Part shown: in pieces, positions 141 to 14,416 of the stretch | Layout: every line of letters starts with the position of its first letter | Position numbering within the stretch: position 1 is the first letter of the stretch | Source: Meiothermus sp. | Lineage (GTDB): Bacteria; Deinococcota; Deinococci; Deinococcales; Thermaceae | Length of the DNA: 64,000 nucleotides | Direction: 5' to 3' | Assembly: GCF_026004115.1 (NCBI RefSeq) | Contig: NZ_BPIM01000001.1 | Location: forward strand, 1,902,501 to 1,966,500 | Program-made: the position numbers and the translations under genes | Notes under the pieces: generated by a model | Told to the model about the DNA's origin: nothing | The model's input: the letters and a program-made list of their open reading frames with translations, nothing else | The model's database searches: none

Positions 141-1094
141 TTACTCACCAAGCACGGCTTTGAGTTGCGGCATTTGTTTGAGTACCAGATAGCGAATGAC
201 ACCCGTTCCGCCGGTGCCCCGTAGCAAGAGCACCAGTGAAGCCTTATCGCTGATACGGTTTACCATGACGGTTTTTCCAAGGTACTCGAGGCCGAGACTC
301 TGGATAGAAGAGAGCTGGTATTTTTCACCCATAACGCTCGAGATAGAAAGCATGGTGTGGAGGTAAGTAGCCAGCAGGTCGGGCTCTTCAATAGTTTGGC
401 CCGCCCAGGACAGCAATTGACCCGTATTGCTTATCACCAGAACACTTTCAACCTCGGGCTTGTCTAAAAAAGGCCGTAGCCCTTCCATCAGCGCTTGATG
501 GGGGGGCTCTGCGTTGGCGGGCATGCTGGGCACAGGCGGAGTCGGTACAGGCGCTGCTTGGGGGAGGGTTGGGGGCTCAGCCTGGCTGGCTGTAATTGGT
601 GCAGACGCGCTTGGAGCGGGGGTAGACGCAACAGGGGTTGGGGCTGGAGCTGCCATGAAAATGGGCGTTGCGGCTGGGCTGGGAGCTGGTGATGGCTCGC
701 CGGTGGTAGGAGGTGCTTGCTTGGCGGCGCTTAGGGCACGCTCGATTTTGGGGAAAAGGTCGTCGGGGGTGAAGGGTTTGGAAACCACATCGAAGGCCCC
801 CGCTTGTTGGGCTTGAGCCACCACGCCCTCGTTGATAATGCCCGAAATCAGGATAACCGGCACCCTTTTGGTGGACTCTCGCATCTTGAGCATCTGGCAG
901 AGTTCAAAACCGCTCATGCCGGGCATGACCACATCGGCAATGACCAGGTGGGGTGTGTTGCGGCTGACCGCCTCGAGGCCTTGTTCGGCAGACTCGCTGG
1001 TCGTGACGACCAGGCCACGGGTGGACAACAGTTTCTCCAGCACTTTCCGTACGCTGGTACTGTCGTCAACAACTAGAACCTTGGCTCCTTGCAT
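141..1094 (-). CDS. Response regulator with C-terminal roadblock-like domain
   Basis: This 317-residue protein starts with a complete CheY-like receiver: acidic pair D10-D11, phosphoacceptor D54 in the IADVVMPG motif, and the conserved Lys in SKPF. A long Pro/Ala-rich linker (about residues 125-200) leads to a C-terminal domain of about 110 residues that resembles roadblock/LC7 (MglB-like) folds, ending in YLVLKQMPQLKAVL. Roadblock proteins usually act on small Ras-like GTPases, so a phosphorylation-controlled link to polarity or pilus machinery is plausible, but that is inference. It is the last gene of the chemosensory-like operon, 176 bases after the DUF4388 protein. The receiver call is secure; the roadblock call is from pattern only. 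Confidence 0.85.
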   Translation of the reverse strand: MQGAKVLVVDDSTSVRKVLEKLLSTRGLVVTTSESAEQGLEAVSRNTPHLVIADVVMPGMSGFELCQMLKMRESTKRVPVILISGIINEGVVAQAQQAGAFDVVSKPFTPDDLFPKIERALSAAKQAPPTTGEPSPAPSPAATPIFMAAPAPTPVASTPAPSASAPITASQAEPPTLPQAAPVPTPPVPSMPANAEPPHQALMEGLRPFLDKPEVESVLVISNTGQLLSWAGQTIEEPDLLATYLHTMLSISSVMGEKYQLSSIQSLGLEYLGKTVMVNRISDKASLVLLLRGTGGTGVIRYLVLKQMPQLKAVLGE

Positions 1095-1270: not shown

Positions 1271-2008
1271 CTAATTGATGCCGTGTTGCCGATGATCCAT
1301 CTCCACAGCCAGGGAAAGCAGGAGCTGATCGGTACTCTTGCGAATCGTGACGGGCTCCAGAAAGAAATCGGCTTCTGTCAGGGGTTCGAAGTGAAAATGA
1401 CCTTTTTGTTGTTGCTCAGCTTGGAGCAACAGGTGTAATACTGCATCTTCGCCACTTTTTCCCATGTACTCGGCGTGGATGAGCTGGCCTTTGTTAAAGA
1501 GCCAACTGGCGCTGCTACCTTCGATCTCGACCTGCAAGCGCCCGGTTTTGGCCGATTTAGCCAGCCACTGGGCCAGCTCAAACAGGCTCATATCGCCCAA
1601 CTGCCCCTGGATGCCGTGTTGTGCGACGGAATTGGCGGGTTCGGAGATGTAGGTCTTGCGGGTGAGCTCGAGGATCAGTTTATAAGCACTGCGTACTACC
1701 TCGGCCACCGGCGTATCGAGGGGCATGATCAGGTCGAGGTCGCTGGTTCTGGGTGAGGCGGTATCGTCGAGCAGGACAAAGGGCACCAGGTTGAGCTGGG
1801 GATCGGAGCGCACCATGTCGAAAAACTCCGCGCCGCTCAGATCGCTGAGCGAGGCGGTACTGACGATTACATCGGGCCGACTGCGCTCCAGGAGGGTCAT
1901 GGCATAAAGGGCGCTGTCCTCAACCTGGACGTCAAACCCCGACAGGGAAAAACTGTCTTTGAGCGCGATGCCGCGCTCGGATTGACCGGTGAGGATCAGG
2001 GCTCTCAT
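1271..2008 (-). CDS. Pseudoreceiver-DUF4388 (PATAN-like) regulator
   Basis: Two domains are visible in about 245 residues. The N-terminal 115 residues follow the receiver fold pattern, but the acidic pair is replaced by ILTGQS and the phosphoacceptor strand reads DVIVSTASLSD, with no Asp at the usual place, so it is probably not phosphorylated. Residues about 130-240 match DUF4388 (GQLGDMSLFELAQWLAKSAKTG, WLFNKGQLIHAEY), the PATAN-type output module seen in cyanobacterial phototaxis and pilus regulators. ATG at 2008 is preferred over TTG at 2011 because AAGGAG lies eight bases upstream. It sits between CheA and the roadblock regulator. Binding to a partner rather than phosphotransfer is the likely mode of action (inference). 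Confidence 0.85.
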   Translation of the reverse strand: MRALILTGQSERGIALKDSFSLSGFDVQVEDSALYAMTLLERSRPDVIVSTASLSDLSGAEFFDMVRSDPQLNLVPFVLLDDTASPRTSDLDLIMPLDTPVAEVVRSAYKLILELTRKTYISEPANSVAQHGIQGQLGDMSLFELAQWLAKSAKTGRLQVEIEGSSASWLFNKGQLIHAEYMGKSGEDAVLHLLLQAEQQQKGHFHFEPLTEADFFLEPVTIRKSTDQLLLSLAVEMDHRQHGIN

Positions 2009-2104
2009 CAAAGAATCTCCTTTGTCAAGTCAGTGCTCCTGGTAATAGCTGTAAACGACTTTCCTGACGAACGGTTTTGTTGGGGATGCTGGATGGAGCT
2101 CCGG

Positions 2105-4873
2105 CTACACTCCCTGCAAAAACCTGTCTAATTCTACCTCGTCGGCGGGCTTGGTCAGGTAGGCATTTGCACCAAGCTCGACGGCCAGGTCGCGGTGTTT
2201 GGACGAGGCCCGGGTGGTCAGCACCGCTATGGGCAAGTGGGCGAGGTTGGGGCGTCGACGCACTTCTTCTAGCAATTCGAAGCCCGACATCCGGGGCATC
2301 TCGAGGTCGGTGACCACGGCCTGGAAGGGTTGCTGCTCCAGGAGCTCGAGGGCCTCCTGCCCGTCGGCTGCGGTAACCACCTGGTGTCCGGCCTTGCGCA
2401 GCATCTGTGCCACCACCTTGCGAACCGAGAGTGAGTCGTCCACCAACAGCACTGGCAACCGCCGGGTGGAGGCAGTCTCGATGCGGGTGTGGATGGGCAT
2501 GGCGGTATCTAAGGAGAGAAGGCCGCTTGGACTCAAGACCAGGATGACCTCCCCGCTCGGTGCGATGGTCGCACCCATCAGGTGGGTTAACTCGGAAAGG
2601 GGCCCGCTAAGGGGTTTGACCAGGGCTTGTTGCAAGCCAATAAATCGCTCGACCGCCAGTGCGACCAGGGCCCCACCCCGACCTTCCACCACGGCCAGGT
2701 CGTACTCTTCCTGCGCTATGGGGGGTAAGCCCAGCAGCTTGCTGAGTGTTTTGATAGGAATGGGGCTGCCTTCGTAGATCACTTCCCGCTGGCCGGCAGG
2801 CGCGGTGAGCAGGGTCAAAAGGCTTTCGCGCGGAAGGGCGATCACCTGCCCTCCGGTCTGGAGCAACAGAATGTCCGAAACCACCAGGTTCTGCGGGACG
2901 CGCAGGCGGACGGTAGTACCCAGCCCATGGCGGGTTTCCACAGTCAGATCGCCGCGCAGACGACGGATGGTAGCCGCTACGGCATCCATGCCCACCCCGC
3001 GCCCGGCCACATCCGAGACCACCTCGGCGGTAGAGAGCCCGGAGATAAAGATAAGCTGAACGGCTTCCTCCGGGCGCAGGGCCTCCACCTGTTCTTGTGT
3101 AAGCAGGCCCCTTTCTACCGCTTTTTTCTTGACCGCCTCGAGGTCGATGCCCCGGCCATCGTCGCTGATTTCCAGCACCAGGGTGTTGCGCTGTTGCAAG
3201 GTGCGGATGGTCAGGGTCCCCTGGGCCTCCTTGCCTTTGGCCCGGCGTTCCTCCGGGCTCTCCAGCCCGTGAATGACCGCATTGTTGACCAGGTGGATGA
3301 GGGCTTCGGACAAGCCGTCCAGTAGCACCGAGTCAATTTCGACCTGCTCCCCCTGGAACTTTATCTGGACAGGTTTTGCACCGGCGATTTGTTGTATCTG
3401 GCGGGTAAGACGCTGGTAGAAGCGGCCAATGGGAATCAGGCGTGCGCGGTTAACTTCTTCGCGTAAGCTCTGGGAGAGCTTTTCGAATAACTCCGTTTCC
3501 TGGCGGAAAGCTTTGATCTGTTCACTCAAGCTGCTGCGAACCTCGGCCAAGTCGCTGGTCATCTCCTGGATGGAGCGGGCCAGGATGTTGAGGTCGTCGT
3601 AGCGGTCGAACTCGAGCTCGGAGAAAAGCTCCTGTACGGTTTTGCCCAGGGTGCTTTGGGCCTGGGGGGATTGGCCGGGGTTCTGGGCTTCCTGCGCCAG
3701 TGAAAGACGGGGGTTGAGGTAGCGATTTTCGAAGTCGGTGGTGGTACGTAAAAGTCGCTGCCGGGCTGTTTCCAGCAGGTTATCCATTTCCTCAAAGCGC
3801 TGGGCCAGCAATTCCAGGCGGGAGCGAGCCACCAGGGTTTCACCGGCCAGGTTGAGCAGGGCATCGAGGCGCTCGAGGCTCACCCGCACCGAAGCCGTGC
3901 TGCTGGGGCGGGCCCGCCGGGCAGGGGCTGTGGCCGCCGAAGTAGTGGCAGCAGGGGCTGCTTGCGCTTCAGGTCGAACTGGGGCTTCTCGACCCAGCAA
4001 AAGCGCCAGGTGGCTTTGTAGCTCAAAGAGCTGGTCGTTAAGGCTTTGGGCGGCCTGGGGGTCTTTGTCCTCGGCTACCCCAATCATCTTGCCCAGTACC
4101 TGCGCGCCTTCCAGCATCACCTGGGCTATTTCGTGGCTCCAGGTTCTCTGCCCCTCGCGTACCTCCACCATCAGGTCTTCAAGCTGGTGGGCCAGGGCAC
4201 CGATGGGTTTGCAGCCCACCGAGTAAGCTGCGCCCTTTACCGTGTGCATGGCCCGAAACAGCGCCCGCAGGTGTTCGCCGCTCTCGTCACCGGACTGCAG
4301 GCTTGCCAGGATGTTGCCCACCTGGTCGAGGTTTTCCAGGGTTTCGGGGGCAAAAAACTCCCAGAACTCGGCGTTTTGCCTGTAGAACCCCTGTAACTCT
4401 TCCACCACCCCCGCCTTGGGGCTAGGCGGTAGTGGGACAGCTTCTTCGGTGGGTTCAGGGGTTTCTCGAACAAAGGCGTCGGGGTTGAGGGCGGTTAGCT
4501 CCTTGATCAGTTCGGCAGCCCCCAGCCGGCCTAGCTCGAGGCCTACCCGCCCTTCCTCGCCGTGGATGGCGATGTTTTCCAGTGCGGTAATCAGTACAGC
4601 CGTGACCTGGCCCATAAACTCGATGACTTTGGCCTGCTGCCCTTCGGTGTAATGGGGTGCGGCCTCCAGAATGCGCTCAGCCAGGGCCCCCAGGTTTGAA
4701 GTTTGGGGAAAACCATACAAGCCTGCCGAACCCTTGAGGCGGTGAGCCATCACCACCAGGGGCTCGTGACGACCTATGGCCAGGAACTCGGCGGCCTGCT
4801 CGAAGACCACCACAGTTTCCCAGGCCTCGTCGAGGAAACTTTGCAGCAGATCGGGTGTGGTCGTGGCGGACAT
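2105..4873 (-). CDS. cheA: Hybrid CheA-type histidine kinase with two Hpt domains and a receiver
   Basis: This is the central kinase (922 residues). Domain order is: Hpt 1 with the phospho-His motif HRLKGSAGLYGF (His44), Hpt 2 with HTVKGAA (His210), a dimerisation segment and coiled region (about 330-500), an HATPase domain with N-box HLVNNAVIHG, ISDDGRGID and GRGVGMD, a CheW-like domain, and a C-terminal receiver with VLLVDDS, TDLEMPRMSG and a YLTKP Lys. The arrangement resembles ChpA/PixL kinases of pilus-linked systems more than flagellar CheA. AGGAG precedes the ATG. It follows the MCP gene by eight bases and is clearly co-transcribed. Phosphate probably passes to the CheY-like protein and to the downstream roadblock regulator. 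Confidence 0.95.
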   Translation of the reverse strand: MSATTTPDLLQSFLDEAWETVVVFEQAAEFLAIGRHEPLVVMAHRLKGSAGLYGFPQTSNLGALAERILEAAPHYTEGQQAKVIEFMGQVTAVLITALENIAIHGEEGRVGLELGRLGAAELIKELTALNPDAFVRETPEPTEEAVPLPPSPKAGVVEELQGFYRQNAEFWEFFAPETLENLDQVGNILASLQSGDESGEHLRALFRAMHTVKGAAYSVGCKPIGALAHQLEDLMVEVREGQRTWSHEIAQVMLEGAQVLGKMIGVAEDKDPQAAQSLNDQLFELQSHLALLLGREAPVRPEAQAAPAATTSAATAPARRARPSSTASVRVSLERLDALLNLAGETLVARSRLELLAQRFEEMDNLLETARQRLLRTTTDFENRYLNPRLSLAQEAQNPGQSPQAQSTLGKTVQELFSELEFDRYDDLNILARSIQEMTSDLAEVRSSLSEQIKAFRQETELFEKLSQSLREEVNRARLIPIGRFYQRLTRQIQQIAGAKPVQIKFQGEQVEIDSVLLDGLSEALIHLVNNAVIHGLESPEERRAKGKEAQGTLTIRTLQQRNTLVLEISDDGRGIDLEAVKKKAVERGLLTQEQVEALRPEEAVQLIFISGLSTAEVVSDVAGRGVGMDAVAATIRRLRGDLTVETRHGLGTTVRLRVPQNLVVSDILLLQTGGQVIALPRESLLTLLTAPAGQREVIYEGSPIPIKTLSKLLGLPPIAQEEYDLAVVEGRGGALVALAVERFIGLQQALVKPLSGPLSELTHLMGATIAPSGEVILVLSPSGLLSLDTAMPIHTRIETASTRRLPVLLVDDSLSVRKVVAQMLRKAGHQVVTAADGQEALELLEQQPFQAVVTDLEMPRMSGFELLEEVRRRPNLAHLPIAVLTTRASSKHRDLAVELGANAYLTKPADEVELDRFLQGV

Positions 4874-4881
4874 ACGGGCTC

Positions 4882-7200
4882 CTAGTCGGGCAGGCGGAAA
4901 CGGCTCAGATTGCGGGCGAGCTCTTGTGCCAGCACGCGCATGGCCTCGGCGGACTGGCGGCCTTCCTGGCTTTCGGTTCTGGTTTGTTGGGCGGTGTGGG
5001 CAATTTTCTGCACAGCCTGATCTACCCGCTCCACCACCGATACCTGGCTCTGCGCCAGGCTCGAGATTTCCTGGGCCAGATTGGCGGACTGTGCGGCCAG
5101 CTGGGCGATTTCCTCGAGGCGACTCCCGGCGCTGTTGGCCACACCATAGCCGGTTTCTACCTCGCGCACCCCGTCTTGTACCAGCCCCACCACACGGGTA
5201 ATGTCGCTTTGTACCTGCTGTACCAGATGGCTTACCCGGTTGGTCTCGCGGGCCGACTCCTCGGCCAGCTTGCGAATTTCGTCGGCCACAATGGCAAAGC
5301 GGCGACCAGCCACGCCTGCGCCCGCTGCCTCGAAGGAAGCGTTGAGGGCCAAAAGGTTGGTTTGCGAGGCGAAGTCCTCGAGCACTTTGGTAATGCTCTC
5401 GATCTCGGCTGAGCGCTGGGCCAGTGCGGTAATGCTCTCCGCGATGAGCTGCATTTCCGTACGAATGTCGCTCATGCCCGCAAGGGTCTGGGTCACTGCC
5501 TGACGGCCAAGCTGGGCCGACTCGAGGGTCTGGCGGGCGGCCTGAGCGGTGATGCCTGCGCTCTCAGCCATTTGGCGAATGCTGGAGGTCACGACCTGGG
5601 TCTGGTTTTGCACCTGACTCACTTCTTGGGCCTGCAAAAGCGCGCCCGAGGCAATGGAAGAAGTGAGCTGATCCATCTGAGCTGCGGTTTCGTTAACCGA
5701 GTCGGCGGCTTGCTTCACACCCTTGAGCAAGTAAGCAATTTCCTCCAGGGTGAGGTTGACCGCATCTACCACGTTGCCCAGCACATCATTGCTGACCTCG
5801 CCGCGCTTGGTCAGGTCGCCCTGGGCAATCTCGGAGGCAATGTCCAGGAAACGCCGTACGTTTTGCTGGAGTTGCAGCCCCCGCTGGCGTTCTTCCTCTT
5901 GTTGCTTCATCAGGCTTCGCAGGGTAAGGATAGACTGGTTAAGAGTCTTACCCACCAGCCCCAGTTCGTCGTTGGAGCGTATGTGTACGAGTGAGGAAAG
6001 ATTACCTTCGCCCAGATGTGAGGCAGTTTTGGTTAGTTCGCGAACAGGCGCCAGGATGGAGTTGAGCACCCCCACAATCAGCCACAGAGCCAGTACCAGG
6101 GTCGAGACCACGATGAACAAGCTGAGTACCTGGTTGTTGACCAGCTGCCCCAAACGCTGATCGAGAACCACATTGAGCTGGGACAAACCCGCGTTGTTAA
6201 CAGCAAAATAGGCATCGACAGGGCGGCTGAGTTGTTCGAAATATAGTGTGGGCCCCAAGGCAAACTGCTTGCTCAGCACTTCCCGCCGGGTCAGATCGGC
6301 CGCCGATTCGGTGATGGCCCGGGCCGAGTTCACACGTTCACTCAGGGTATTTCCCAGAATAGGATTGGCGGTCAGGGCATTTTGAACTGTCCGCTCTAAA
6401 GGGGCTGTAAGCGAGGCAATCTCGCCTAAGTTGGTGCCCCGGTTTGCCAGAGTGGCCAACAGGCCGCTCAAGCGCTTTTCTTGCTCAGGGGATAGCGCTT
6501 TGGATTGCAACGCGGTTGTGCCCAGGCCCTGGATTTGACTCAGCGCTTCCATCACCGGAGGTAGACGATAAACCACCGCGTCTACAAGCCAGTAACTTTG
6601 TTTGGTTGGATCGAGAAGGAGGTTAGAGCCGGAGGCAATCCTTTCGTTGAGGCTGAAGACCTGCTGTATCAGACGGGTATGCTCTATAAAGCTGCGATTT
6701 GTGCTTTGATTTACAGCCTGGAGGGTGTTCCAGTTGACTTTGAGCGTCTCCAGATCCTTGTCTAGACCGAAGGGATCGCCCTCCGCGCGGTTGATTTGTT
6801 GTAAGAGGGAAAGGCTGCGTTGTACTTCTTCGGCTTTCTTGCTGCGCTCTATGGCCAAATCCTGATTGCCCGACAGTACCGCAGCGCTCATTCCACGATG
6901 CTCGGCCAGGGCCTTAATCACACTGCTGGTGTACTGTAAGAAAAGCACGCCCTGCTTTTCCGCTCGCACAAAATTGATGTCGCTCTGCTGCTCGGAAACC
7001 AGTGAGAAGAGCAGATAAAAGATGGGGAAGAGCAAGGGGATCACCAGCAGGGCCAGCTTGTAGGAGACGCGAAGGTTGCCGAAAAACCCCGTGCTGGGGG
7101 CCTCGAGGGTTTCGGCATCCACGCGTACCTTTCGGCTCTGGGCCCCCAGGAGCCCCACTTGCTTAATCTCCACCTCTCGGAAGTCGCGCTGTAAAGCCAT
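4882..7200 (-). CDS. Methyl-accepting chemotaxis-like transducer
   Basis: This is a 772-residue transmembrane receptor. A cytoplasmic N-terminal stretch of about 45 residues precedes the first membrane helix (LALLVIPLLFPIFYLLFSLV). A periplasmic region of about 300 residues, rich in helices, ends at a second helix near residue 355-380 (LFIVVSTLVLALWLIVG). A HAMP-like linker and the coiled-coil signalling domain follow, with tip sequence [17 protein letters not shown]. That tip differs from the common EAARAGE form. The C-terminal RFRLPD is shared with the neighbouring receptor, pointing to duplication. It lies between cheA and the second receptor. The ligand cannot be deduced. Start: ATG with GGGGAAC upstream. 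Confidence 0.93.
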   Translation of the reverse strand: MALQRDFREVEIKQVGLLGAQSRKVRVDAETLEAPSTGFFGNLRVSYKLALLVIPLLFPIFYLLFSLVSEQQSDINFVRAEKQGVLFLQYTSSVIKALAEHRGMSAAVLSGNQDLAIERSKKAEEVQRSLSLLQQINRAEGDPFGLDKDLETLKVNWNTLQAVNQSTNRSFIEHTRLIQQVFSLNERIASGSNLLLDPTKQSYWLVDAVVYRLPPVMEALSQIQGLGTTALQSKALSPEQEKRLSGLLATLANRGTNLGEIASLTAPLERTVQNALTANPILGNTLSERVNSARAITESAADLTRREVLSKQFALGPTLYFEQLSRPVDAYFAVNNAGLSQLNVVLDQRLGQLVNNQVLSLFIVVSTLVLALWLIVGVLNSILAPVRELTKTASHLGEGNLSSLVHIRSNDELGLVGKTLNQSILTLRSLMKQQEEERQRGLQLQQNVRRFLDIASEIAQGDLTKRGEVSNDVLGNVVDAVNLTLEEIAYLLKGVKQAADSVNETAAQMDQLTSSIASGALLQAQEVSQVQNQTQVVTSSIRQMAESAGITAQAARQTLESAQLGRQAVTQTLAGMSDIRTEMQLIAESITALAQRSAEIESITKVLEDFASQTNLLALNASFEAAGAGVAGRRFAIVADEIRKLAEESARETNRVSHLVQQVQSDITRVVGLVQDGVREVETGYGVANSAGSRLEEIAQLAAQSANLAQEISSLAQSQVSVVERVDQAVQKIAHTAQQTRTESQEGRQSAEAMRVLAQELARNLSRFRLPD

Positions 7201-7214
7201 ACAAGTTCCCCTGC

Positions 7215-9482
7215 TTATGCTGGCAGCCGGAAGCGGGTGAGGCTCTGGCTCAGCTGCTGCGCCAGAACCCGCAGTTCCTCGGCGGTCTGGCGGCCTTTGC
7301 GGCTTTCCTCGTCGGTTTGCAGGGCAGTGTTGTAAATATCCTGCACCACATTCGTCACTTCCTCTACCCGGCTCACCTGTTCCTGGGCCACTTCAGCTAC
7401 GCGGCGTGCGGCCTCGGCGGATTGCTGGGCTAAGGCTGCGATTTGCTCGAGCTTGCTGCCAGCTTCGGTAGCGATGCGATAGCCCTGTTCCACCTCGCGG
7501 GTACCGCCTTCTACCGAGATCACTACGCCTTGAATCTCGGTCTGAATCCCCTTAACCAGAAGGCTGACACGCTGGGCTGCACGGGCCGAATCCTCGGCCA
7601 GCTTGCGTACCTGATCGGCCACCACCGCGAAGCGGGCACCGGCCTCACCGGCCCCGGCCGCCTCGATGGCAGCGTTCAGGGCCAGCAGGTTGGTTTGCTT
7701 GGCAATACGTCCAATGGTGTCCACCACCTCGGAAATCTCCAGAGAGCGGTCTGAAAGACCCTTGATGCTCTTGGAGATGCTCTGCACCTCGCGGCGAATG
7801 TTTTGCATGCCGCTCAGGGTGTTTTGCACCGCATCCTTACCTTCCAGTGCGGCTTCTTTGGCCTGCATAACCAGACCAGTGCCCTGCACGATTTGACCGG
7901 CCATGCTGCGAATAGTTTCGGTGGCATCGAGGGCTTCGATGCGTGCCCTGGCCGAAAGCTCGGCCTGCGATTCGGCTTTTTCCAGCACGCTTCCCGAGCT
8001 CAGGGCCATCTGCAAGGCACCCTGGTTTACCATCTCGGTCGCATTCTGTACCTGCTTGAGCAGGTAGGCGATCTCCTCAACCGTCAGGTTCACTGCGTCT
8101 ACCACGTTGCCCAGCACGTCCTCGGTCACACGCCCGCGCTTGGTCAGGTCGCCTTGGGCAATGTCCATGGCCACGTTCAGGAAGGCCCCGATGTTTTCTT
8201 GCAGGAGCTGGCTTTGCCGGAGTTGTTCGGCGTCCGCTTCGGCTTTGGCCTTGAGCTGCGCGGTGGTTTCGTTGAAGGTGCGGGCCAGCGAACCGAGTTC
8301 GTCGGAGGATTGAACGGGTATCTGCACCCCAAGGTCGCCTTTGCGCAAGCGAAGCGAGGCGCTAAACAACTGCCCTAGTGGTCGAGTAATCGAGCGGGCT
8401 ACCGCCCCAACCAGGCCAAAAGTAAGGGCCAGGAACAGAGCGAAGAGTACAAAGGTGATGAGCTGACCCCGTTGAAGTAAGAAAATGCGCTCTTCAAGAC
8501 GGTTATCTAACTGGACAAGTGCCGCAAAGCCAAATTGGGTGAGAATATCTATGGCGGCACCTAAGGCTTGGTTGTAATCCTTGGCCGAGAAGCTCAGGCG
8601 TGTGGGCGAGACAATTTCGTTGATGGCCAGGACATAGGCTTCTCGAACCAGTCCCTCGGTCTGGCTGAGGGGCCCCGACAAGACCCTGGCGATCCTGGCG
8701 TCTTTTTCTGCTGCAAATGCGATCTGCTGTTTCAGCTCGAGGAGGTTCTGGCCAATCTTTACGGCCAGAGCGTTCACCTCGGCACGCTCATATGCGTTGG
8801 CAGTGCCTTTCTTGAGGATATTGAGGCCCAGGTTGTGCAGGCGGGCCAGATCTTCTCGCATGGCAGGGATGAGATTGACGGTGGAGGTGACGAGGTAATA
8901 GGTGTTGAGTTCAGGGTCGAGGATTAGTTGAGAGTTGTTGGCAACCCGAACAATCAGTTGTTGGATTTCGGCTAATAATGCGCCATGCTCTTCGAAATTG
9001 CTGACAGAGTCCAGGCCGATGGCTTGATCCTTGAGCCGGGTCCAGCTTCTCTTCAGGCTGGCAATTTGATCGCTGACAGCCATTTGGCCTTTGAGCTTTT
9101 GGTCAAGCTGGCTCAACGCCTCGAGGGCAGCGTCAACCTCGGCAGCTTTGCTGGAGATTTCCTCTTTAGAACCCTGCCCCACGAGGAACCGGTCTACGTT
9201 TCGGCGGTGCTGACCGATTTTCACCATGCTCTCGTAGAGTGCGGTGACGTACTGAGCACCGTCCGCCTCGTTCCAGGCGGAGTTGATACGGTATTGCTGG
9301 GCGTTGTGTACAGAAATGACCATTAGCGAAACCGGAATCAAGAATGCAACGCTGATAAGCAGCAGTTTTTGCCAGATTTTGAGCGAACCGAGCAGGCCCC
9401 CTACCTGCATCATCTGGGTAGGGGCTGCTGGGGTGGGGCGACGGGCCGGGCGTACGGCGGTTTTGGGGGTACGGCGGGTCAT
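7215..9482 (-). CDS. Methyl-accepting chemotaxis-like transducer coupled to MHYT protein
   Basis: This is a 755-residue paralogue of the adjacent receptor. It has a Pro/Thr-rich cytoplasmic start, membrane helix 1 ([19 protein letters not shown]), an external helical domain of about 300 residues, helix 2 near 345-365, HAMP, and a coiled-coil signalling domain with tip [18 protein letters not shown] and [14 protein letters not shown]. It ends TRFRLPA, parallel to RFRLPD in its neighbour. Its ATG overlaps the TGA of the MHYT gene by four bases (ATGA), so the two are probably translationally coupled and may form one sensory unit. No obvious C-terminal CheR-docking pentapeptide is present, in keeping with the absence of CheR from the operon. 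Confidence 0.93.
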
Positions 9483-10234
9483 GCTTCAGCCTCCTGGGCT
9501 TTTTCTGCGGAGGTCTCGAGCAGCGAGGTCAGGAACATCGGCAGCCCCACGACCGCTACGGCCAGCAGCAAGAAGAGGTTGAGCGAAAGCAGGCTTCCAC
9601 TGGCCACCATGCTGTGAATTTCTTCAGTGCCCGTTGCGGTAAAACGGGCTGCCAGCATGGCAGTGTAGTGCATGAAGGGGATGGCCGAGCCGGTGATGAT
9701 GGCGGTGATCAGGTGGCGAAAAGGAACCAGATTAAATGCCGGGCTGGTGAGCGTCCAGATGCCAAAGGTACCCAGTGCGACTGCCACCAAAACCGAGAGC
9801 GCGACCATGGGAAGGTCGAAGGTCAGCCTGGCATCCAGGCGCATGGCGAACATACCCACGTAGTGCATCACACCGATGCCCGCACCCAGAAAAAACCCTG
9901 CACCCAGCACCTGGGTAAAGCTGACCTTAGATTTGCTGACCAACTGGAAGGCCGCCGCAGCGCCAAAAATAGCGAAGAACACCGAGGCCAGGGTAAGGAG
10001 GGGGTCGTAGGCTACCAGCATGTCGAGCTGTAAGGCGGTCATGGCAGTGAAGTGCATGGCCCAGACCCCCAGCCCAAAGGTGGCGGCGCCCATCCAGAGC
10101 CAGCCCCCACCGGTGACCCCTTGTCGCAGGCGGTTGATGACGGCCAGTGCGGCATAGGATGTAAAAATGGCAATCAGGAACGAAGCGCCCACCAGCAGGG
10201 GGTCGTGGTTCATGGGAAGATGTGTTTGTTCCAT
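9479..10234 (-). CDS. Stand-alone MHYT-domain integral membrane sensor
   Basis: This 251-residue protein is almost entirely membrane-embedded, with about seven hydrophobic helices. It carries three MHYT motifs: MHFTAM near residue 59, MHYVGM near 127 and MHYTAM near 193. The MHYT family is predicted to bind copper and to sense a diatomic gas such as O2, CO or NO; it is normally fused to GGDEF, EAL, kinase or adenylyl cyclase outputs. Here there is no output domain, only a short acidic tail. The stop codon overlaps the start of the downstream chemoreceptor (ATGA), so signal is likely passed to that receptor in trans (inference). AAGGAG precedes the ATG at good spacing. Confidence 0.93.
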
Positions 10235-10246
10235 TAGGACAACTCC

Positions 10247-10717
10247 TTAGGCTTGAGGCAGGGGCCTGTTGAGGGTGTCGGGGGCCTGTGCCTGTGAAGA
10301 TATCTGTACACAGAGCTGCGCGAAGAGATTGCGCACCTCGAGGATTTGCACGGTTTTGCCGTCCTCATCCAGAACTGCACTAAAAAGCGGATTGGGGCTG
10401 GGGGCAATCCAGGCGCCGCTCAGGTTGGTGCGCAGCCCCACCACCTCGTCAATCATGAAAGCCAGGGGTTGCCCTTCGAACTCGAGCAAGGCCGCAATAC
10501 CTGAACCTGCGGGCGTGATTTGCAAAATGTGACTCAAGTCGAATACCGACACAATCTGGCCCTGGTTGCTCAAGAGCCCCAGCAAGGGTGGGGGGGCCAG
10601 CGGGACGGGAGCGGGCTGGGTCACTTCCAGAACCTCTTTGAAGGTTTTTGGTTCCACCCCCAGAAAAGTGTTGCCCAAGCGCAGCACCCAAATTTTGTCA
10701 ACAGTGGTATTGATCAT
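10247..10717 (-). CDS. cheW: CheW-like adaptor
   Basis: This is a 156-residue single-domain CheW-like scaffold linking receptors to CheA. Recognisable parts are the N-terminal LRLGNTFLGVEPKTFKEVLE, the PPLLGLLSNQGQIVSVFDLS core and the MIDEVVGLR strand. It ends 12 bases before the MHYT gene and starts 54 bases after the cheY-like gene. It is slightly shorter than enteric CheW (167 residues). It likely assembles the two transmembrane receptors and the hybrid CheA into an array. No second CheW is present in the window, although CheA carries its own CheW-like domain. Confidence 0.9.
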   Translation of the reverse strand: MINTTVDKIWVLRLGNTFLGVEPKTFKEVLEVTQPAPVPLAPPPLLGLLSNQGQIVSVFDLSHILQITPAGSGIAALLEFEGQPLAFMIDEVVGLRTNLSGAWIAPSPNPLFSAVLDEDGKTVQILEVRNLFAQLCVQISSQAQAPDTLNRPLPQA

Positions 10718-10771: not shown

Positions 10772-11128
10772 TTAGAGCAGTTCCTGGACTGCTTTGCGCA
10801 GGGCTTCGGGGGTGTAGGGCTTGGTCAGATAGCCATTGGCACCCTGGCGCTTGCCCCACTCAATATCGGTAGGCTCGCCCTTGGAACTAATGACCAGTAC
10901 CGGGATGTGTTTGGTGGCCTCACTCCGGCGCAGGGAGCGCAGCACCTCGTAGCCATTGCGGCCCGGCATGACCACATCCAGCAACACCGCATCAGGCTTT
11001 TCGGCTTCGATGCGCTGCTCGACATTCTCGCTGCCCTGGTATAGCACCACCTGGTGGTACTGCGAAAGCGAGTGTTCAATGAGCTTCAGGTCGGCCAGGG
11101 AGTCGTCTACTGCGATCAGTTTTGCCAT
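10772..11128 (-). CDS. CheY/PilG-like single-domain response regulator
   Basis: This 118-residue receiver protein has D8-D9, phosphoacceptor D51 in LLDVVMPGRNG, the conserved Ser in VLVISSK and Lys in YLTKPYTPE. No output domain follows, so it works by protein binding, as CheY or PilG/PilH do. It is the first gene of the minus-strand operon and has GGAGG ahead of its ATG. The probable phosphodonor is the hybrid CheA four genes downstream. There is no flagellar gene in the window but a pilT gene lies 11 kb away, so control of type IV pili is a reasonable guess, unproven from the sequence. Confidence 0.92.
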   Translation of the reverse strand: MAKLIAVDDSLADLKLIEHSLSQYHQVVLYQGSENVEQRIEAEKPDAVLLDVVMPGRNGYEVLRSLRRSEATKHIPVLVISSKGEPTDIEWGKRQGANGYLTKPYTPEALRKAVQELL

Positions 11129-11702: not shown

Positions 11703-13349
11703 TCAGCCCATCCGACGGCGCAGCTCGAGGGCCTCTTGTCTCAGTGCGTCGGTTTGCTGCATTTGGGCTAATGTAGTATCGCGGCTAGACTCCAGCCGGG
11801 CGCAAGGTGTGCGGTACAGGCTATTGAAGCGTTCACGGGTGCGCTGCATCTCGGTGTCCAGGGTCTCGCTCAAAGCCCGCTCGAGGGTGCTGCGTAACTC
11901 CGCCAACCGTTCGCGCAGGCGGGCTTTGGCGGTCTCTTTGCGACGGGGCAGGATGGAGGTAGCCAAAATGGCGCCAAACACCGTGGCGAAAATGCCCAAA
12001 ATATCGAAGGCAATTTTTTGCGCCACCAGCAGGATGGTCAGGCCCAGCCCCATCACCCCCACTTCGGCCAGGGCGGTGCCGCGCAGGCTCTCCTGGATGA
12101 AGTCGCGCAACTGAATGGCCTCGGCCTCGGCATCGAAGGAGCGCAGGGCTTCTTCCAGGTTGCCTGCAATGGCGCGCTCTTCTGAACCGACCTGCTCGGT
12201 TTGCCGCAGGCCAGGTGCCTCACGCAATAGCGAGAGGGCATCCTCGAGCAGTTCGCGATCGCGCTTGGCCAGCCAGTTCATGGCCTCGAGTACCCGGCGC
12301 TCTATATCCTGGTTAGCCCCTTTGACCACATCGTCAATAAAGCTCTGCTTGAGTTTGCTGGATTGCAGCAACTCGAGAAATTTGGAGAAACGCACTTTTT
12401 CGTCCAGCCAGCGTTCACCCCTGCTGCGCACCTCGTCAATGGCTTGCAGCGCCAGTGCAACCTGTCCGCTAAAGTCGCGGCGGGTGCGTTCTTCATGTCG
12501 CCTGAGCAGGTTATCCAGCTCGCGGCAGGTAGCCAGCTGCTTCTCGGCTTCTTTGAGCTTATTTTCCAGGGCAGGTCTGGCTTCCTCGCAGAGCCGCGCC
12601 AATACCCCTAAGGGCGAGCCCAGCTTGAGGAGAGCAGCCTCGCGGGTAAGCACCTGCCGGATGTGGGCCTCGAGTTCAGGAATATGGCTTTGCGCCGCGT
12701 TGCCTTGCCGTGCCCGCCGTGCCGATACCGAAAAGATGGGAGGGATGTGTCCGAGGGTCTGATCGGCGCCTTTTTGCACGAACTCGAGCACCTGCCGCAA
12801 CTCGGCCTCGGTGAGCAGGTCGATCTTGTTGATGACAAGCGCCACTTTCTTCCCCCAGGATCGAATGAAATTGAGAAAGTCGGCCTCGGACTGGGTGAAG
12901 GGACGGTCGGCGCTGGTAACGAACAAAATCAGGTCGGCGCGGGGGAGAAATTTCTCTGTCAAAACCTGATGGTGTTGCAAGATGGCGTTGGTGCCGGGGG
13001 TATCGACCAGCCGCACATCCTTGAGAAGCGGGTGCGGCAACAGAATGAGCACCAGCTCGGGGGACTGCGGCTCGAGTTTGGGTTCGGGGCCGTAGCCAAT
13101 CAGGTTGATGCGGTCGGTGGTGGGCGTGACCCCCTCCTTCAAAAAATCGCCCCCCAGGAGCGCGTTGAGCAACGACGATTTGCCGCTATTGAACTCGCCA
13201 GCAACTACCAACAAGAAAGGGCCCTCCAGATCCAGCAAGGCTTGCTTGAGGGGCTCGGTTTCGATCCCCACTCGAGCCAATGCATCCAGCCCTCTGGCCA
13301 GCAACGCACGCACATCTTGGGCCAGGGCCAATGTTTTGGAATCCAACAT
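11703..13349 (-). CDS. Bacterial dynamin-like GTPase
   Basis: This 548-residue protein has a large GTPase domain: P-loop GEFNSGKSS near residue 52, G2 region GVTPTT, G3 VDTPG, and G4 NKID. Long helical stalk segments follow (about residues 260-430). A hydrophobic paddle with two membrane segments (VGVMGLGLTILLVAQKIAF, ILGIFATVFGAILATSIL) lies near 455-495, then a second coiled coil. This is the layout of bacterial dynamin-like proteins, which remodel membranes upon GTP hydrolysis. A TAGAAT box lies seven bases before the ATG, suggesting a leaderless mRNA. It stands alone, flanked by repeat copy A downstream and an AT-rich region upstream. The specific cellular role is not deducible. Confidence 0.9.
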   Translation of the reverse strand: MLDSKTLALAQDVRALLARGLDALARVGIETEPLKQALLDLEGPFLLVVAGEFNSGKSSLLNALLGGDFLKEGVTPTTDRINLIGYGPEPKLEPQSPELVLILLPHPLLKDVRLVDTPGTNAILQHHQVLTEKFLPRADLILFVTSADRPFTQSEADFLNFIRSWGKKVALVINKIDLLTEAELRQVLEFVQKGADQTLGHIPPIFSVSARRARQGNAAQSHIPELEAHIRQVLTREAALLKLGSPLGVLARLCEEARPALENKLKEAEKQLATCRELDNLLRRHEERTRRDFSGQVALALQAIDEVRSRGERWLDEKVRFSKFLELLQSSKLKQSFIDDVVKGANQDIERRVLEAMNWLAKRDRELLEDALSLLREAPGLRQTEQVGSEERAIAGNLEEALRSFDAEAEAIQLRDFIQESLRGTALAEVGVMGLGLTILLVAQKIAFDILGIFATVFGAILATSILPRRKETAKARLRERLAELRSTLERALSETLDTEMQRTRERFNSLYRTPCARLESSRDTTLAQMQQTDALRQEALELRRRMG

Positions 13350-14062: not shown

Positions 14063-14416
14063 ATGACTGAACAACCAAAACCTGCACCTGCCAAAAAGCC
14101 CGCTGCCAAGAAAGCTGCTGCTAAGCCCGCAGCCAAGAAGCCTGCCGCTAAGGCTGCTGCAAAACCTGCACCTGCCAAAAAGCCCGCTGCCAAGAAAGCT
14201 GCTGCTAAGCCTGCAGCCAAGAAGCCTGCTGCGAAAGCCGCTGCCAAGCCTGCTGCCAAGGCCGCTGCGAAACCCGCCGCCAAGGCTGCCCCTAAAAAAG
14301 CCGCTGCCAAGCCTGCCGCTGCGAAACCCGCCGCCAAGGCTGCTCCTAAAAAAGCCGCTGCCAAGCCTGCTGCTGCGAAAAAGGCTGCTCCCAAGAAGGC
14401 GGCTGCCAAGAAGTAA
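14063..14416 (+). CDS. Histone H1-like Lys/Ala/Pro repeat DNA-binding protein
   Basis: This 117-residue protein is composed almost only of Ala, Lys and Pro in repeats such as AAKPAAKKPAAKAA after a short MTEQPKPAP start. This resembles the C-terminal tail of histone H1 and bacterial H1-like proteins that bind and compact DNA through lysines. There is no folded domain, so it is tail only. The gene contains an 84-bp direct duplication (from 14081 and again from 14165) and a 54-bp one (from 14267 and again from 14321), so its length probably varies between strains. A strong AAGGAGG site precedes it and a classical terminator follows. The opposite strand shows a long open frame that is only a composition shadow. 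Confidence 0.85.
   Translation: MTEQPKPAPAKKPAAKKAAAKPAAKKPAAKAAAKPAPAKKPAAKKAAAKPAAKKPAAKAAAKPAAKAAAKPAAKAAPKKAAAKPAAAKPAAKAAPKKAAAKPAAAKKAAPKKAAAKK

Follow-up and report, generated by a model that had tools for sequence, protein, structure and literature searches.

To what does a membrane sensor report when its own chain ends without an output domain? The question is raised by a gene in a 64,000-nucleotide stretch of Meiothermus sp. DNA, the whole of which is called the window here, that encodes a stand-alone MHYT protein among chemotaxis genes. The assignment of the window to Meiothermus agrees with its near-identical named relatives, among them M. hypogaeus (93%). In the fused MHYT signaling proteins, the same chain carries a C-terminal output (GGDEF/EAL, LytTR, or kinase), whereas the window protein ends with its last helix and a short acidic tail, and no output domain is present in the Pfam matches or the AlphaFold2 model of the chain. 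With no output domain of its own and no second MHYT gene in the 3.35 Mb genome, the protein needs a partner. The conservation of the gene throughout the genus and its occurrence in a comparable operon of Acidobacteriota point to a real partnership with CheA arrays of this kind.

The MHYT protein and its operon

The MHYT gene (9479-10234, (-) strand) encodes 251 aa and starts with an ATG preceded by the Shine-Dalgarno sequence AAGGAG. PF03707 is the sole Pfam domain of the protein, matched in four stretches with an E value of 1.7e-45 and a score of 153 bits against a cut-off of 21. An earlier note on this DNA had described a sensor-only protein with three MHYT motifs, which agrees with the Pfam result and with the seven predicted helices. 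The motifs, of the form M-H-[YF], are M60-H61-F62..M65, M123-H124-Y125..M128, and M188-H189-Y190..M193; all three are intact in 18 of 18 Deinococcota sequences, and their residues are mostly invariant or near-invariant in alignments of 21 and 27 sequences.

The AlphaFold2 model, built from the 27-sequence alignment, consists of seven long helices (mean pLDDT 85.2, pTM 0.80), with the motif at 60 near the end of helix 2, that at 123 near the end of helix 4, and that at 188 near the end of helix 6. The helix order would place the N-terminus outside and the C-terminus inside, and, together with the basic loop between TM1 and TM2, it suggests that the motifs lie near one face of the predicted seven-TM bundle. 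A Foldseek search with the model returned no match at E <= 1e-3, the best Z values being helical-bundle noise; the same noise level applies to the comparison with retinal proteins, which belong to a different Pfam family. Since no solved MHYT structure was found in the PDB, this small, thermostable, and output-free protein is a good structural target for the study of metal and gas binding.

The operon runs on the (-) strand in the order response regulator, CheW, MHYT, receptor 1, receptor 2, CheA, DUF4388 protein, and receiver protein. The single-domain response regulator (10772-11128 (-), 118 aa; Response_reg E 3.5e-21) has a PilG/PixH-like position and is 79-100% identical across Meiothermus. 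It is followed by a CheW-like adaptor (10247-10717 (-), 156 aa; Pfam CheW E 3.8e-14), with 12 nt between the end of its gene and the start of MHYT. Receptor 1 (MCP1; 7215-9482 (-), 755 aa; Pfam HAMP and MCPsignal) and receptor 2 (MCP2; 4882-7200 (-), 772 aa; Pfam HAMP and MCP signaling domain) are the only MCPs in the genome, which leaves one array to serve. The CheA-type kinase (2105-4873 (-)) comprises two Hpt stretches, a kinase domain, a CheW domain, and a C-terminal receiver, all detected by Pfam. The last two genes encode a DUF4388 (PatA-type) protein (1271-2011 (-), 246 aa; Pfam DUF4388 E 8.3e-15) and a receiver-domain protein (141-1094 (-); Pfam Response_reg E 1.2e-27), the C-terminal part of which looks roadblock-like by eye and is free of Pfam matches.

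An Hpt-bearing CheA with a C-terminal receiver, a CheW, MCPs, and a single-domain response regulator within one operon are the features of the type-IV-pilus class of chemosensory systems. The gene order is that of such operons (Pil-Chp, Pix), and the succession of response regulator, CheW, MCP(s), and Hpt-bearing CheA with receiver is shared with Pseudomonas Pil-Chp and cyanobacterial Pix/Hmp/Pil. Unlike these systems, Meiothermus has additional MHYT, DUF4388, and receiver genes, and no match to the CheR family was detected in the genome despite the two MCPs and the CheA; the Meiothermus array may operate without methylation-based adaptation. The operon probably controls surface movement. Surface (twitching) motility is reported for M. 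ruber, and T. thermophilus is devoid of Pil-Chp and MCPs (PMC12393216), which makes Meiothermus a practical test organism.

The junction with receptor 1 and its conservation in Meiothermus

The MHYT stop codon (TGA) and the receptor 1 ATG share a 4-nt ATGA overlap at 9479-9482 (-), as the earlier note had read it; the junction sequence is ...CCCAGGAGGCTGAAGCATGACCC, also given as AGGAGGCTGAAGCATGA. The proposal that the two genes are translationally coupled is borne out by the overlap but is weakened by a strong Shine-Dalgarno sequence (AGGAGG) that belongs to receptor 1 itself, located 7 nt upstream of its ATG, within the terminal part of the MHYT gene. The genes are coupled, and the receptor's own Shine-Dalgarno sequence means that an independent start is also possible. 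True 4-nt overlaps are found in 3 of ~25 close same-strand ORF pairs of the 64-kb window, and because such overlaps are common, the overlap alone is no evidence of interaction.

The kept adjacency, unlike the overlap itself, is not ordinary. The MHYT gene is present in 16/16 Meiothermus genomes of >90% completeness, the two genomes that lack it being just 84-85% complete, and the slot between CheW and receptor 1 is unchanged in all 16. The junction is a 4-nt overlap in 14 of these (13 ATGA, one GTGA), and in the other two the genes are 1 and 3 nt apart. A separation of MHYT genes from receptors in all relatives, which would have spoken against the arrangement, is thus not what is seen. The dN/dS values of 0.10-0.27 for three close pairs indicate that the MHYT gene is under purifying selection.

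Receptor 1 consists of a TM helix, an all-helical periplasmic domain, a second TM helix, a HAMP domain, a second HAMP-like stretch, and the MCP signaling domain. Across the genus, mean identity is 68% for the MHYT protein versus 32-38% for the periplasmic domain of receptor 1. The stability of the MHYT protein while the input domain of the receptor changes fast argues that MHYT does not act through that domain.

The receptor sequences display further variation of their own. Among the orthologs of receptor 1 in the genus, the periplasmic domain is hypervariable, with identities falling to ~15-20%, and the second HAMP-like and signaling parts are ~90% identical. This periplasmic domain has no Pfam match at E <= 5, NIT included. 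A model of residues 1-420 is all-helical (pLDDT 83.5), and its nearest structures in the PDB, both of them weak matches, are NasR (NIT domain) and NarQ; the best Foldseek match, NasR 4akk, combines a probability of 1.00 and a TM score of 0.51 with an E value of only 1.6e-3. A nitrogen-oxide theme for the receptor 1 input is no more than possible. The input architecture of receptor 2 differs between species, with lengths from 644 to >900 aa, and the receptor 2 of the window contains a NIT-like stretch (HRGMSAAVL) by eye.

Two candidate signs of contact between MHYT and receptor 1 were rejected. Conservation of the receptor 1 TM helices had been suggested by an earlier mixed receptor set, in which several MCP2 rows were of other architecture; in 11 matched genomes, the values are 0.64/0.58 for receptor 1 versus 0.83/0.80 for receptor 2. 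The TM helices are thus better conserved in receptor 2 than in receptor 1, and a maintained contact surface on receptor 1 is not indicated. As for the tails, the basic N-terminus of receptor 1 and the acidic C-terminus of MHYT appear complementary, but the same basic tail is present in receptors without MHYT.

Stand-alone MHYT genes in other lineages

In a set of 111 Deinococcota genomes, clear MHYT genes are confined to Meiothermus and two genomes of another family, G024 and G025; weak matches in G084, G086, and G087 (one stretch, E ~1e-4) were excluded from the count of MHYT proteins. Meiothermus is the only member of Thermaceae with the gene, and a Deinococcus strain outside the set has MHYT genes on plasmids. 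Sister genera and more distant families possess the che operon without MHYT. Orthologs of receptor 1 are found in such operons in G041 and, more distantly, in G022, G023, and G025, and the receptor therefore does not require MHYT.

The position of the gene varies between lineages. The homologous operon of G024 has MHYT flanked by its second and third receptors. In G025, a DUF4388 gene and the gene for a 420-aa transmembrane protein ending in HAMP lie upstream of MHYT. The stand-alone MHYT proteins of Meiothermus, G024, and G025 form one clade, with support of 99/97 and 100/98 in two trees. The pairing of MHYT with the 755-residue receptor, as put forward in the earlier note, holds for the junction throughout Meiothermus and loses its force in relatives in which MHYT is flanked by two other receptors or closes the operon at its 3' end. 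Given this variable position, MHYT is better described as an array sensor than as one half of a pair with that receptor.

The G025 cluster (L070, 8161-12271) encodes a 340-aa protein of unknown identity, the DUF4388 protein, the output-free transmembrane HAMP protein, and the stand-alone MHYT, and is situated away from any MCP or CheA. The 420-aa HAMP protein was considered as a headless or truncated receptor 1 and rejected, as the similarity is confined to the HAMP region.

A survey of 199 sampled Acidobacteriota genomes revealed two stand-alone MHYT genes. One of these, in G717 (L150, 17692-18429), is the last gene of a che operon, 5 nt past its neighbor, in the order response regulator, CheW, MCP, CheA, CheW, CheW, DUF4388, receiver protein, and MHYT; the MCP has a weak sCache match. 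The G717 protein groups with other stand-alone proteins outside the Meiothermus clade, with moderate support for the joining branches. This placement outside the Deinococcota clade suggests that stand-alone MHYT proteins were probably recruited into such operons at least twice. A DUF4388 gene is common to all four contexts, namely Meiothermus, G024, G717, and G025.

Stand-alone MHYT proteins are also found in Actinomycetota, Pseudomonadota, Acidobacteriota, and Deinococcus; the loci read in the first two phyla, in the Acidobacteriota genome G580, and on the Deinococcus plasmid have no chemotaxis genes nearby. Among ~11 stand-alone MHYT contexts other than that of Meiothermus, two are in an operon of this type versus ~0.03 expected, a rough binomial probability against genome size of 4e-4, or 0.03 when only one phylogenetically independent case is counted. 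The survey behind these values is small, and neighbors outside the Pfam-scanned loci were called by BLAST to the window proteins. No MHYT-MCP fusions were seen among the annotated plasmid matches.

Possible partners and role of the MHYT protein

Comparison with characterized systems provides insights into what the protein may sense and how it may signal. CoxC of Afipia carboxidovorans, an MHYT-LytTR protein, is CO-responsive and copper-dependent, with O2 as a competitor (PMC11347149). The window protein shares with CoxC a seven-TM MHYT domain with three motifs, here predicted in TM2, TM4, and TM6; CoxC has a DNA-binding output of its own, whereas the window protein has none and has chemotaxis genes as neighbors. 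In the same paper, NbdA and MucR of P. aeruginosa (MHYT-GGDEF-EAL) are cited for NO/nitrate responses. Both contain the MHYT input module of the window protein, but they have a fused c-di-GMP output and no link to chemoreceptors. A separate seven-TM partner is exemplified by sensory rhodopsin II, which forms a 2:2 membrane complex with the HAMP-bearing transducer that it drives (PMC5292967). Like sensory rhodopsin II and HtrII, MHYT and receptor 1 are a seven-TM sensor and a two-TM, tandem-HAMP transducer encoded as separate proteins. Sensory rhodopsin II differs in being a retinal protein of another family with a proven physical complex, whereas an MHYT-receptor 1 complex is putative. HtrII is devoid of a large periplasmic domain, unlike receptor 1 with its 280-residue domain. 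The arrangement was proposed to be new, and no paper on an MHYT-chemoreceptor link was found in the open-access literature searched; the novelty does not extend to single-domain MHYT proteins as such, which are already recognized in the introduction of PMC11347149.

The reading favored here, with moderate confidence, is that MHYT serves the single type-IV-pilus-type (Pil-Chp/Pix-like) array as a stand-alone sensory subunit and would act laterally on a chemoreceptor. We infer the receptor contact, the direction of the signal, the ligand, the metal, and the pilus output. The ligand would most plausibly be a diatomic gas bound at a copper site; this putative gas/copper role is carried over from CoxC by analogy. 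The resulting change would be relayed laterally, inside the membrane, to a receptor's TM helices and HAMP domain, a contact for which sensory rhodopsin II and HtrII offer the best model, and the receptor input would then alter CheA activity and twitching. The receptors are the candidate partners because they are the membrane-bound members of the operon, and the fixed junction would make receptor 1 the default; other partners, such as the whole array or a DUF4388 branch, are possible because the position of MHYT varies between lineages.

That variation is an argument for a different and rather unlikely reading, in which MHYT serves the whole array or another component (CheA, the DUF4388 protein, or receptor 2) and the ATGA overlap sets the expression ratio only. 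MHYT precedes receptor 1 in Meiothermus, lies between receptors in G024, ends the operon in G717, and occurs without an MCP in G025, with DUF4388 as a constant companion; in addition, the periplasmic domain of receptor 1 varies strongly and MHYT does not. Against an array-wide role, the receptor 1 junction stays within 3 nt in 16/16 Meiothermus genomes, and the membrane location of MHYT makes a receptor the simplest partner.

The remaining readings remove MHYT from signaling altogether. A membrane copper or redox factor for maturation or scavenging, co-expressed with the operon, would account for the missing output domain and for conserved Met/His motifs that suit metal handling, and the PDB search gave no solved MHYT structure for comparison. 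This role is improbable, as the characterized MHYT proteins in the literature covered are all sensor inputs (PMC11347149), and repeated placement in che operons of two phyla is unexpected for copper handling. More improbable still, and already disfavored, is a chance rider that entered the operon by a single insertion in the Meiothermus ancestor with no functional tie to chemotaxis. The restriction to Meiothermus within Thermaceae and the frequency of 4-nt overlaps agree with such an event; the presence of MHYT in every near-complete Meiothermus genome with dN/dS well below 1, a second occurrence in a related family, a third in another phylum, and the excess of such operons over expectation in the context survey do not.

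If MHYT is a sensory subunit of the array, as favored above, the array gains a membrane-embedded input besides the periplasmic domain of the receptor, a widespread gas-sensing membrane domain can function in a chemoreceptor array as a subunit of its own, and the rhodopsin-transducer pair has a bacterial, non-photosensory counterpart. A broader and tentative proposal is that stand-alone MHYT proteins are general, exchangeable gas/copper subunits that dock on the HAMP receptors of type-IV-pilus-class arrays, joined these arrays in Deinococcota and in Acidobacteriota by independent events, and add a second, membrane-embedded input.

The surroundings of the operon contain two further genes. A dynamin-like GTPase gene (11703-13349 (-)) is located upstream of the che operon, a neighborhood that recurs in the majority of Meiothermus genomes and in some of the sister genera. 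At 14063-14416 (+), a short ORF with Lys/Ala/Pro repeats (KPAAKKAAAKPA...) resembles a histone H1-like or DNA-binding tail protein.
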